From: Belliella alkalica
GTDB taxonomy: Bacteria > Bacteroidota > Bacteroidia > Cytophagales > Cyclobacteriaceae
Direction of reading: 5' to 3'
Assembly (NCBI RefSeq): GCF_022549785.1
Contig: NZ_JAKZGO010000021.1
Coordinates: forward strand, 1 to 61,775
DNA: 61,775 nucleotides
Shown in pieces: positions 23,711 to 40,930 of the stretch. Position 1 is the first letter of the stretch; every line of letters begins with the position of its first letter. The notes under the pieces are model-generated. The model did not search any database and had not been told where the DNA came from. It saw nothing but the letters and a program-made list of their open reading frames with translations. Position numbers and translations under genes: made by a program.

Positions 23711-23870
23711 TTTCTTGTATGTAGCCAAACAATAGATTGTGAGACGAGCAATTTCAAGTTAAGTTGACTACGTCTCGGCGCACAAGTGTGGGCTGTCGTC
23801 AGTTGACGAGCATCCGCATATTGTAATGCCTCTTCATACCCAACGTGCAAAATTGCGGATACTCTTATAC
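23711..23870. repeat. 160-bp structured dispersed repeat, copy A
   Basis: It aligns without gaps with 40771-40930 (my count: 116 of 160 identical). Hairpin 2 pairs ATCCGCA (23812-23818) with TGCGGAT (23854-23860), plus an inner TTGTA/TGCAA. Hairpin 1 (from CTTG to CAAG around 23714-23758) is more decayed here than in copy B. It could be a non-autonomous mobile element or a structured RNA. Confidence 0.65.
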
Positions 23871-23877
23871 CTTTTTA

Positions 23878-23908
23878 AACCTTCGGGGTATTTTCATACC
23901 CCAAAGTT
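23878..23908. repeat. CTTCGGGG/CCCCAAAG hairpin, copy 2
   Basis: AACCTTCGGGGTA (23878-23890) is inverted as TACCCCAAAGTT (23897-23908), nearly the same as at 1733-1761. On the plus strand a T-run (ATTTTTTG) follows, so it could terminate plus-strand transcripts; it sits 25 bases past the dapA stop on the minus strand. Confidence 0.6.
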
Positions 23909-23933
23909 ATTTTTTGATTCTAGCTCTTGATTT

Positions 23934-24791
23934 TTATAGTACCATTGCGGCTTGTATCTTTTCTCTCAGTTTATCAGAGGCTTCTACTAATGGAAGTCTC
24001 ACAGCTTCTTTACATATACCTAATTCCTTCAATAAATACTTCAATCCTACAGGATTACTTTCTTCATACATTAATGGATTTAAGGAAAGAAGTTTGAAAG
24101 TAGCTTTTTTTGAATCTTCCAAATTGCCATGGCAGATTGTTTTGAATATAGCAGGATATGCATTTGCTAAAACTGAAATCACTCCAGAACCTCCAACTGC
24201 ACGGAGAGCTGTAGTCATCATATCATCTCCGGAAATCATCAAGAAATCCGAAGGCATATTTGCAACGATCTGCATGCACTGCTCCATGTTCCCACTTGCT
24301 TCTTTCATCGCTATGATATTTGGATGATTTGCCAAAGTCAATGTAGTCGATGCCGTCATGTTTGTAACAGTCCTGCCGGGTACATTGTAAAGAATCACTG
24401 GAATCGGGCTAGCATCTGCAATAGCTGTGTAATGAGCAATGATTCCTGCTTGGGAAGGTTTGTTGTAATAGGGGCATACAGAAAGAATCGCATCAACATT
24501 TGAAAGATCGGTTTGCTTTATTTCTTCAAGTACAGAGTAAGTATTATTTCCACCTAAGCCGTATACTATTGGCAACCTTCCAGAATTGATATCAATGGAA
24601 GCTTTCAGAACCTGTTTTTTCTCTTCTTTAGTCATAGTTGCAGATTCTCCTGTTGTGCCCTGCACTACCAAATAATCAGCTCCTCCAGCTATCACATGAT
24701 TGATCAATTTCTCTAATCCTCCAAAATCAATAGAGTGATCTTCATTCATAGGCGTGACCAACGCAACTCCCGTTCCAAGTAAGTTTAACAT
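23934..24791 (-). CDS. dapA: 4-hydroxy-tetrahydrodipicolinate synthase
   Basis: This 285-residue TIM-barrel enzyme condenses pyruvate with aspartate semialdehyde, the first committed step to diaminopimelate and lysine. Visible features are GTTGESATMT (substrate loop, about 45-54), the catalytic Tyr135 and Arg140 in LYNVPGRT, and the Schiff-base lysine Lys163 in AMKEASGN. GGSGVISVLAN lies near the C-terminus. Its start overlaps the DUF6913 gene by seven bases, making it the last gene of a ligA-DUF6913-dapA operon. Confidence 0.94.
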   Translation of the reverse strand: MLNLLGTGVALVTPMNEDHSIDFGGLEKLINHVIAGGADYLVVQGTTGESATMTKEEKKQVLKASIDINSGRLPIVYGLGGNNTYSVLEEIKQTDLSNVDAILSVCPYYNKPSQAGIIAHYTAIADASPIPVILYNVPGRTVTNMTASTTLTLANHPNIIAMKEASGNMEQCMQIVANMPSDFLMISGDDMMTTALRAVGGSGVISVLANAYPAIFKTICHGNLEDSKKATFKLLSLNPLMYEESNPVGLKYLLKELGICKEAVRLPLVEASDKLREKIQAAMVL

Positions 24792-25285
24792 GCTTCTTTT
24801 ACTTTAATGAAATAGTCCAATAAATCTTGGATATTTTCTTTTAAATTTTTGTCTTCATTGTTGAGCATCAAGTCTAAATAAGATCGGTTTTGAGGTGAAT
24901 AGAAACCGATTTTTGATGCAGATTTCGAATGCAGCAGCAAATAAAGCAAATAAGGACTAAGGTTTAAAGTTGGAACCAATATAAAATCTGTTTTTTTTTC
25001 AAGAAAGCTTTTAACTTTCGTATTTGGTTTGCCCCAAAGGCTGAAGTCCTGAGAAGAGATCCCGTTATCTATATCATTTTTGGAATTGTAAAATCCTGAT
25101 ACTTCAACTGATTTTCCAAACATATTAAAAATAACTTCTTTGCTTTCCAAAAGCTCTTCCTGAGTATTTGTTAGAATCCCAACGGATCTTACAACCTCTG
25201 GAAATGCAGGGTTTTCTCTTTTAAGGTGAATTTTCTTTTTGAAACCTCTTGTGATAAATTGTCTCTTTAAAATCTCCATACTCAA
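24785..25285 (-). CDS. DUF6913-type conserved protein between ligA and dapA
   Basis: This 166-residue protein lacks signal and membrane segments. It has a basic N-terminus ([18 protein letters not shown]), [32 protein letters not shown], the aromatic LWGKPNTKV and [20 protein letters not shown] with [17 protein letters not shown] recall this family (named DUF6913 in some databases) beside dapA or ligA in Bacteroidota, with no known activity. It overlaps both neighbours (four bases with ligA, seven with dapA), so it is made together with them. The function is unknown; the tight coupling hints at a cell-growth role. Confidence 0.7.
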
Positions 25286-39222: not shown

Positions 39223-39235
39223 AGGGTTTGTTTGC

Positions 39236-40642
39236 TTAGAAGTTCAATTTGAAATTAACAATTGGTGCTGAAAGTTGTGAATAAGAACTGAAAATAGTCG
39301 CTTTGGCTTGAAGCTGTTGATTGACAAAATAGTTTTCTGGATTGAATTTTAAAGAATAGTTGATGGATTCCTCTTTGTTCTTTCCTGAAAGGTCAAAATT
39401 CATGTTCTCTTTTTTGTATTTTGAAAAAAGAATTTGCTGTGTAATCAGAGCAAAACCAGAGGGTAAACCGATTACTACTGCAGGAGATCCACTTTCTGCT
39501 AAGGCAGCCACGCCCAAACCAACCAAAGCGGCTCCTCCTGTTGCGTAATTGATGGTGCTGCCTTGCTTGTTGGTTAGATTTACTCCTTTCACTGTTTTTT
39601 GGCCTATACTTGTACCAATCACACTAAACGCAGCAGGAATCAAAATGACGCCATTACTATAATTGTCAATTGTGGCTTGGGTAGCAATGGCAAATCCAAT
39701 TCCTGTGCCTATTAGGCTCATATTGGTAACATAATTACCATCACCTTTTGAGTAAGGGTATTTTTTTGAAGCGATATTTCCCAAAGCAAGTCCTGTCGCT
39801 CCACCTACCAAAGCACCTAGTCCATATATCCTCCCATTGTCTGAATTCAAGGCAGAAATCGCAGAAATACCAACAAATGAGCCTAGAACTCCATGATGAC
39901 GCATTACTTCAATATGTCCTTCAGAATACCTTCTTTTCTTTTGCATCTGAAATGCTACTTCTCCAAGGGCTATACTTCCAACTGTTGAAAAAGCAAAAGC
40001 AGTCTTACCTTCATTAAAAGTATTTCCTCCAATCACCAAGCCCAAGGACCCTCCATAAATAAGCCCCAAAAATCTACCGGCATTGTTGGCTCTGATAACT
40101 GACCTGTCTATGTCTTCAAACTTTTTTGGGTTGATTACAGGGCCCAGTGCCCACAATCCTCCAGTCACTAGAGGAATTCCCAAAACACCAAAATTGTCCA
40201 ATTCTAAAACTGAAACCAATGATGCTCCATAGTATATACCATAAGAAGTAGCGATAACCCGATCTATACCTCTCCATTCAAATTCTGCTGGCATGGCCTG
40301 GGCTTTATTGGTTGGAGTTACCTCTCTATCCCACTGAATTCGCATCTTTTCATATAGATTCCTTTCATCTTCAGATAACTTTTGATAGTAGTTATTCAAA
40401 AAATCTTCGAAATCCAAAAGGTAAGACATCTCCTCATCAGTTACAGGATCGCCCACATTCTGTTTCTTCTTGATGGTTTTGTAGGTCGCTTTATTCGTCT
40501 CTTCCCAATAGCCTCTAGCAGTATAAATTCCCTGTGCTGTAGTGATGTGTTGAAAACCAAAAAGCATTAGCAAAATTGAAAAGATGATTAAGGTTTTATA
40601 GTACCTTTTCTCATTTTTAGTAGAAGTTGATTCTTGGATCAT
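39236..40642 (-). CDS. glycine-rich, membrane-like protein, unknown
   Basis: This 468-residue protein has an N-terminal hydrophobic helix (LIIFSILLMLFGFQHI, about 18-33, with AQG as a possible cut), a charged stretch (about 40-120) and then several moderately hydrophobic segments rich in glycine: GFLGLIYGGSLGLVIGG-like (about 191-207), FVGISAISAL, GLGALVGGATGLALGNIA (about 274-291), LIGTGIGFAIATQA, and GGAALVGLGVAALAE. These GxxxG patterns suggest packed membrane helices or glycine zippers. I do not recognise a family. It leads the pair with TraB/GumN and has a promoter at 40670-40699. Confidence 0.6.
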   Translation of the reverse strand: MIQESTSTKNEKRYYKTLIIFSILLMLFGFQHITTAQGIYTARGYWEETNKATYKTIKKKQNVGDPVTDEEMSYLLDFEDFLNNYYQKLSEDERNLYEKMRIQWDREVTPTNKAQAMPAEFEWRGIDRVIATSYGIYYGASLVSVLELDNFGVLGIPLVTGGLWALGPVINPKKFEDIDRSVIRANNAGRFLGLIYGGSLGLVIGGNTFNEGKTAFAFSTVGSIALGEVAFQMQKKRRYSEGHIEVMRHHGVLGSFVGISAISALNSDNGRIYGLGALVGGATGLALGNIASKKYPYSKGDGNYVTNMSLIGTGIGFAIATQATIDNYSNGVILIPAAFSVIGTSIGQKTVKGVNLTNKQGSTINYATGGAALVGLGVAALAESGSPAVVIGLPSGFALITQQILFSKYKKENMNFDLSGKNKEESINYSLKFNPENYFVNQQLQAKATIFSSYSQLSAPIVNFKLNF

Positions 40643-40669
40643 GTTAAATATTTATAGATAAATTTCTAT

Positions 40670-40699
40670 CAAAACTATCACTATTTATTGATTTTCAAC
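40670..40699 (-). promoter_or_regulatory. promoter of the glycine-rich protein/TraB pair
   Basis: Minus strand: GTTG, 18 bases, TAGTTTTG (40677-40670, exact TAnnTTTG). The start would be near 40665, about 23 bases before the ATG. Confidence 0.5.
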
Positions 40700-40770
40700 A
40701 TGGTCAAGACAATTAATTGGATTAGGTTTAGTTTCTAAGACCTTCTTTTATTCTTTGAATGTCTATCCGC

Positions 40771-40930
40771 TTTCTTGAAATTAGCCAAACAATAGAATGT
40801 TGGCTAAACGATTTCAAGGTACGTTGATTACTCAAATCTGCACAAATATGGGTTTTCATCATTTGAAGAGTATCTGCAAATTGTATTTCCTTTTCCGAAC
40901 CAATCTACAATATTGCGGATACTCTTATTT
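40771..40930. repeat. 160-bp structured dispersed repeat, copy B
   Basis: This is the better preserved copy of the repeat at 23711-23870. Hairpin 1: CTTGAAA..TTAGCCAA (40774-40788) with TTGGCTAA (40800-40807) and ATTTCAAG (40811-40818). Hairpin 2: AAGAGTATCTGCA (about 40866-40878) with TGCGGATACTCTT (40914-40926), plus inner ATTGTA/TACAAT. A middle TCAAAT/ATTTGA pair (40832-40837, 40861-40866) is also possible. Confidence 0.68.

Follow-up and report, generated by a model that had tools for sequence, protein, structure and literature searches.

Two intergenic repeats of Belliella alkalica are probable copies of a family of miniature transposable elements with IS1595-type ends

We analysed a 61,775-nucleotide stretch of DNA from Belliella alkalica, a member of the Cyclobacteriaceae (the window; NCBI RefSeq assembly GCF_022549785.1, contig NZ_JAKZGO010000021.1, positions 1 to 61,775). 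It contains two similar repeats, copy A and copy B, for which a preliminary description made from the letters alone had proposed either a structured RNA or the spread of a folded mobile element. The second proposal gained support from terminal inverted repeats, 8-bp target duplications, insertion sequences (ISs) that share the tips, and an unoccupied copy A site in a related genome. With a probability of about 93%, A and B are members, now diverged, of a family of miniature inverted-repeat transposable elements (MITEs) with IS1595 ends, moved in trans by an IS1595-family transposase. As mobile elements without a gene of their own, they are of an ordinary and known kind. This Belliella family is seemingly undescribed; in the literature searched, of which the articles cited here were available in part, no description of IS1595-derived MITEs in Cyclobacteriaceae was found.

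The match from which the analysis started is exact as first counted. Positions 23711-23870 and 40771-40930 are identical at 116 of 160 bases, ungapped, at an offset of 17,060. The next-best offset within 60 bases gave 55 matches, and 2000 shuffles of copy B against copy A gave a mean of 42 and a maximum of 64 identities. A query of 181 bases around copy A also recovered copy B (E = 4.4e-23) in a search of the B. alkalica genome (G000), a 4.95 Mb draft in 105 contigs. The differences had been called mostly transitions, but 18 transitions stand against 26 transversions. The repeat itself is real, but its borders had been drawn too short, and with the terminal repeats each copy extends over 170 bp (Table 1). 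A and B align without gaps because both are the same 170-bp long form. This form carries an additional block, consensus GACTACGCCGCGGCGCACAAGTATGGGCTGT, that is common to loci L002, L004 and L005 of B. alkalica and L032 and L055 of Belliella calami (G002). Copies A and B match the model of one subfamily, MITE1, at 23699-23864 (E 5.3e-28) and 40759-40924 (E 3.5e-19), respectively, and their tips are eroded relative to the family tip TATGANTATCCGC. The absence of overlap with genes is borne out in substance. Copy A is flanked by xseA and dapA, and copy B is found a short way downstream of a gene for an acyl-CoA oxidase; the open reading frames 23602-23850 and 23845-24327, mechanically listed over copy A, have no support as genes.

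Copies of the element are dispersed over the genome. With copy A as a query, at least 50 full and partial matches were obtained at E<=10 in B. alkalica (40 of the 59 candidates scored), and the aligned copies have the common ends TATGANTATCCGC ... GCGGATANTCATA. The tip TATGANTATCCGC is present at both ends of family elements, forming terminal inverted repeats. Within one mismatch it occurs at 221 sites in the genome, compared with 5 for the reversed pattern. From 60 of 62 stretches fetched around 79 exact tips, we chose convergent tips 125-175 bp apart, disregarding the flanks. This gave 65 elements of 131-174 bp, 43 of them 151-152 bp long. The elements contain no transposase gene, and A and B (170 bp) have no supported gene. 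Looser tips combined with a flank filter of at least 6/8 gave 60 elements, which fell into clusters of 22, 21, 10, 3, 2, 1 and 1. A query from a second subfamily, MITE2, found at least 36 near-full copies in B. alkalica including itself (40 of 117 candidates scored); two others are 100% identical to it and 31 of the 36 are at least 94% identical. Five MITE1 copies at different places in B. calami do not differ at any of 152 bases, and all five are flanked by perfect 8-bp duplications. These copies are very recent. The family is abundant in the two Belliella genomes and is also present in Cognataquiflexum and Aquiflexum. When the exact tips were searched in 148 genomes of Cyclobacteriaceae, other genera contributed 44 (G117), 28 (G133), 21 (G140), 17 (G063) and 11 (G060) sites, and single elements were found in the G063 and G133 loci. 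Neither plasmids, searched with one MITE2 query, nor phages, searched with one MITE1 query, gave a match.

Target-site duplications, one of the checks suggested beforehand, were found across the family. The 8 bases flanking the 65 tip-chosen elements are perfect repeats in 38 cases; seven of the 8 agree in 11 cases, six in 6 and one to five in 10. With shuffled right flanks, 2.48 elements on average and never more than 9 reached at least 7/8, and displaced registers gave 0-4. The length of the duplication is fixed, as no perfect repeat reaches 9 bp in these elements, and the A+T content of the left 8-mers is 92%, compared with 64% for the loci. IS1595 members usually carry flanking 8-bp duplications (PMC8101967), and those of ISApl4 are A/T-rich (PMC12561309), as far as the available parts of these articles go.

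The empty site of copy A, sought as a further suggested check, is preserved in B. calami. There, copy A is missing from the orthologous spacer and the target site is uninterrupted. The dapA-xseA spacer of B. calami reads TTAATTACTTTTTTAAACC, the window reads AAATACTTTTT, copy A, TACCTTTTTAAACC, and TACTTTTT is present once in the former. Barring its precise loss from B. calami, copy A was therefore inserted after the two lineages had separated, producing the 8-bp duplication TACTTTTT/TACCTTTT. The orthologous B. calami spacer likewise lacks copy B.

ISs with the same tips were identified in the tip search. In G133, convergent tips occur at a constant spacing of 1040 bp. Ten copies of this IS are identical at 1038-1040 of 1040 bases (in the better orientation), nine of them with perfect 8-bp duplications. 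The encoded protein belongs to the IS1595 family (PF12762, 1.8e-20, 73.9 bits against a cut-off of 27; NF033547, 7.1e-62) and scores 25.3 bits for the N-terminal zinc ribbon PF12760, whose cut-off is 25.4. Relatives of the protein are present in 169 of 295 genomes of Cyclobacteriaceae at E<=0.001, and of 8 Belliella genomes, 6 have a PF12762 match; an open IS1595 transposase frame occurs at least once in B. calami (G002:C11). Among 67 fetched transposase or tip loci, 51 have tip pairs at IS spacing, of which 30 are distinct and 17 of these are flanked by perfect 8-bp duplications. The inner box at the IS ends varies between IS groups. Over 24 IS calls, transposase identity correlated with inner-box identity (Mantel r 0.82, 0 of 2000 permutations), a correlation that shared ancestry alone would yield and that includes two calls, L174 and L223, with probably untrue IS boundaries.

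The ends of the MITEs were then compared with those of the ISs. The MITE2 right end equals IS right ends over 23 of 23 bases, one of them in another Belliella genome (G007; L186). For MITE5, alignments were obtained with left ends of ISs (best E 2e-6) as well as right ends (5.8e-6). In MITE1, positions 2-62 align to 2-75 of an IS left end (L177), and positions 119-151 to 1006-1039 of an IS right end (L220; E 6.5e-4). When matches were counted end by end, MITE1 fitted best to the CACGT group of ISs when left is paired with left and right with right (31/40 for L219 and 30 for L220), with the swapped pairing giving 25 each. A kinship of MITE and IS ends is supported by these alignments. Which MITE end corresponds to the left and which to the right end of the IS can be told clearly for MITE1 alone. 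The most economical reading is that the MITEs derived from several IS1595 groups and were moved in trans by IS1595 transposases; we infer both this movement and an origin by internal deletion.

Several observations weigh against this reading. The swapped assignment of ends fits MITE2, MITE4 and MITE5 as well or better, and for MITE5 there are weaker matches to IS ends on the opposite strand as well. The alignments place the ends of the MITEs on IS sequence, not the middles, which were not traced to IS interiors. Ten of the 65 elements have the poor duplications (5/8 or worse) mentioned above, and the flanks of copy B show no recognisable target duplication. The block missing in B. calami exceeds copy B by about 20 and 10 nt, with TCTAA repeats at its borders. 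Furthermore, no PF12762 match was found in the B. alkalica genome, a draft from which an intact IS could be missing. A related transposase query at E<=1 gave four matches there, corresponding only to transposase fragments and one weak match. Three lie at two places on contig C84, the best comprising 45 residues at 62% identity with stops; the fourth (0.048) is within a long unrelated frame.

That no intact IS1595 gene was found in this draft, although near-identical MITE2 copies are present in it, favours a mover from another transposase family, with the tips and the 8-bp duplications shared by chance. The own-genome searches covered two families, PF12762 and PF01797, and others are possible. 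On the other hand, IS1595 elements from within the genus and the family agree with the MITEs in tip and duplication length, and with MITE1 in the inner boxes. In addition, the only long tip pairs with flanks of at least 6/8 among the fetched B. alkalica loci were one of 1375 bp and one of 711 bp that starts at a MITE tip. The 1375-bp pair, in L138, had been considered as an IS and was rejected, as it spans ruvB. Taking these points together, we regard another transposase family as very improbable.

Movement by an IS1595-family transposase would proceed as follows. The element keeps IS1595-family ends, consisting of the outer tip TATGANTATCCGC and an inner box whose sequence varies with the IS group, and has other sequence between them with no transposase gene. 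A transposase made elsewhere would bind both ends, and insertion into AT-rich DNA with an 8-bp stagger would leave the 8-bp duplications. On this view the foldable hairpins stem from the inverted end sequences, the right end facing a tip-like box inside the element, rather than from selection on RNA.

The folding of the repeats was examined with regard to the alternative that they are a structured noncoding RNA, or an RNA regulatory element, maintained by selection on two hairpins. The matching two-hairpin structure initially described holds in part; both hairpins are present in the minimum-energy fold of the copy B + strand, and the copy A + strand folds differently. The + strand folds are stable, with z-scores of -2.78 (copy B) and -2.36 (copy A), better than 199 and 198 of 200 shuffles, respectively; on the - strand the scores were -2.01 for copy B and an unremarkable -1.01 for copy A. 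In an alignment of 51 MITE1 copies, the named hairpins, as they stand in the copy B fold, had 65.0% of their cells paired, above the 28-41% in slid registers. This excess arises because the end sequences are inverted, hairpin 2 being the right end against the internal tip-like box. Shuffled alignments paired at 65.3%, and 463 of 500 were at least as high as the real one. Covariation was 0.055 compared with 0.061 in shuffles, and RNAalifold over the same copies gave 3 pairs at -0.94 kcal/mol. The 51 rows comprise 28 from the B. alkalica genome and from window or G002 fragments and 23 from other fetched loci; further copies scoring identically or nearly so, and partial copies, were left out, and the row for copy B is 4 nt short. 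The seven long-form copies gave 70.2% against 70.7% in shuffles (438 of 500 at least as high). In other copies, most of the outer stem of hairpin 1 does not pair (42.5% of cells). No Rfam family reached its gathering score. With pairing and covariation not above shuffles, and with copies that move with target duplications, selection on an RNA structure finds no support here and we consider it highly unlikely.

The internal tip-like box, consensus GCGGATANTCGTC, is a third, inverted copy of the tip. Its distance from the IS-right-like end is 50-51 nt in MITE1, MITE3, MITE4, MITE5 and MITE6, subfamilies whose sequences otherwise differ; this position is partly a matter of choice, as the step that oriented the elements used a motif overlapping the box. 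All 22 MITE1 elements carry it at 10/13 or better (one at position 41, owing to a deletion), as do all 6 members of clusters 3, 4 and 6, and all 10 MITE5 elements at 12/13 or better. No box above 9/13 was found among 21 MITE2 copies. The different subfamilies also have a common length of 151-152 bp. A working design with three boxes, in which the internal box would be a third transposase site, or a hairpin setting the geometry of the transposition complex, and could mobilise a 63-bp unit, is a tentative proposal that we think rather doubtful. Common descent of the subfamilies could also explain the box and the shared length.

Standalone elements of 62-63 bp were found three times in 196 genomes, with duplications of 7/8, 4/8 and 0/8. 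The 63-bp example from B. alkalica (Table 1) is possibly a still smaller mobile unit. As a separate observation, the box in MITE1 and MITE5 ends in CGTC, the tag of one super-family of repetitive extragenic palindromes (REPs), as given in the portion of PMC3733652 available; this is probably a coincidence.

The box nevertheless bears on the possibility that A and B are REP-like palindromes moved on single-stranded hairpins by a Y1 (RAYT/IS200) transposase. The ends do form hairpins, five Y1 transposase matches (PF01797) are present in the B. alkalica genome, and the CGTC super-family is reported from Bacteroidetes (PMC3733652). The hairpin arms of the Belliella elements are about 33-35 nt apart, compared with loops of 4-5 nt in the CGTC REPs (same source). 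At three of the five Y1 loci, those examined, no tip occurs within 2 mismatches. The family has 8-bp target duplications. To our knowledge, such duplications are not expected of Y1 transposition, and we give this explanation hardly any weight.

Among known systems, the Belliella elements resemble the IS1595 family in the outer tip, in the AT-rich 8-bp duplications and in the MITE1, MITE2 and MITE5 ends that align to IS ends, but are mostly 151-152 bp long (170 bp for A and B) and lack a transposase gene. The accessible parts of the following reports describe similar elements with other kin. MITECca01 of a Cardinium endosymbiont is likewise short, high in copy number and devoid of transposase, with IS-like inverted repeats, but measures about 240 bp and is related to ISCca4 of the IS982 family (PMC9769881). 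BrickBuilt, MITE239 and others from Porphyromonas gingivalis are also Bacteroidota MITEs with terminal repeats like those of resident ISs; their kin belong to the IS5 family, and BrickBuilt has a minisatellite and variable target duplications (PMC4596501). MITEPye1 of Paracoccus yeei combines terminal and direct repeats with strong RNA folding, but has IS1182-family kin and 1-3 copies per chromosome (PMC11578231). The CGTC-tagged REPs share with the Belliella elements a short, palindromic and intergenic nature and the CGTC end of the internal box, but have no dedicated transposase, in contrast to elements of 151-170 bp with target duplications (PMC3733652).

With these results, a candidate structured RNA becomes a testable mobile family comprising several MITE subfamilies with IS1595-type tips. 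When RNAs are sought from pairs of sequences, the inverted ends of mobile elements can mimic conserved hairpins, and the two are told apart by aligning more copies and applying shuffle controls. The correspondence of MITE ends to groups of ISs provides material on how IS1595 transposases recognise ends and on how long MITEs persist after loss of the helper.

Table 1. Coordinates of the elements and related features in the window and in the B. alkalica draft genome
Feature	Position	Strand	Remarks
Copy A, MITE1 element, long form, 170 bp	23698..23867	+	Tips TATAATTATCCTA ... GCGGATACTCTTA; IS-left-like end first on + strand
Copy B, MITE1 element, long form, 170 bp	40758..40927	+	Tips AATGTCTATCCGC ... 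GCGGATACTCTTA
Copy A target duplication, left copy	23690..23697	.	TACTTTTT; 7/8 equal to right copy
Copy A target duplication, right copy	23868..23875	.	TACCTTTT; 7/8 equal to left copy
Internal tip-like box, copy A	23805..23817	+	GACGAGCATCCGC; one arm of hairpin 2
Internal tip-like box, copy B	40865..40877	+	GAAGAGTATCTGC; one arm of hairpin 2
MITE2 element, complete, 152 bp	23440..23591	-	Subfamily model match E 2.1e-49; 99% identical to query copy
MITE2 element target duplication	23432..23439; 23592-23599	.	TAAAGAAA; TAAACAAA; 7/8 here, 8/8 in B. calami
Remnant of a further right end (ACCTTGCGGATACTTAAA region)	23667..23689	+	79% direct repeat of 23845-23877 over 33 nt
Standalone 63-bp element, two perfect tips	L152:2501-2563 = C62:188551-188613		7/8 duplication ATATTTTA/ATACTTTA
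IS1595-type transposase fragments	C84:131444-131578; C84:179176-179415		Only traces found in draft

The genes around 60 elements were oriented in tandem in 39 cases, divergently in 10 and convergently in 8, and 3 elements were at an edge. For random positions in spacers the proportions were 64% tandem, 20% divergent and 16% convergent. A regulatory or terminator role suggested by gene orientation was rejected, there being no clear preference against these positions. None of the 60 elements lies inside an open reading frame, compared with 940 of 1200 random positions; gene-breaking insertions are invisible in this count, as the caller would split the gene. One MITE1 variant of B. calami (L070:2655-2825) carries a 19-nt palindromic-looking insert, GATTTACGCCACGGCGTAA, in mid-element.

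Two neighbours of copy A had been overlooked in the preliminary description. One is a remnant of a further right end, which is also found in B. calami. The other is the MITE2 element, which is complete and lies upstream of xseA, 18 bp from the start codon. No such element was found in the orthologous spacer of G003; in B. calami it is present, and its duplication TAAAGAAA is perfect there. This element is a candidate for holding part of the xseA promoter region.

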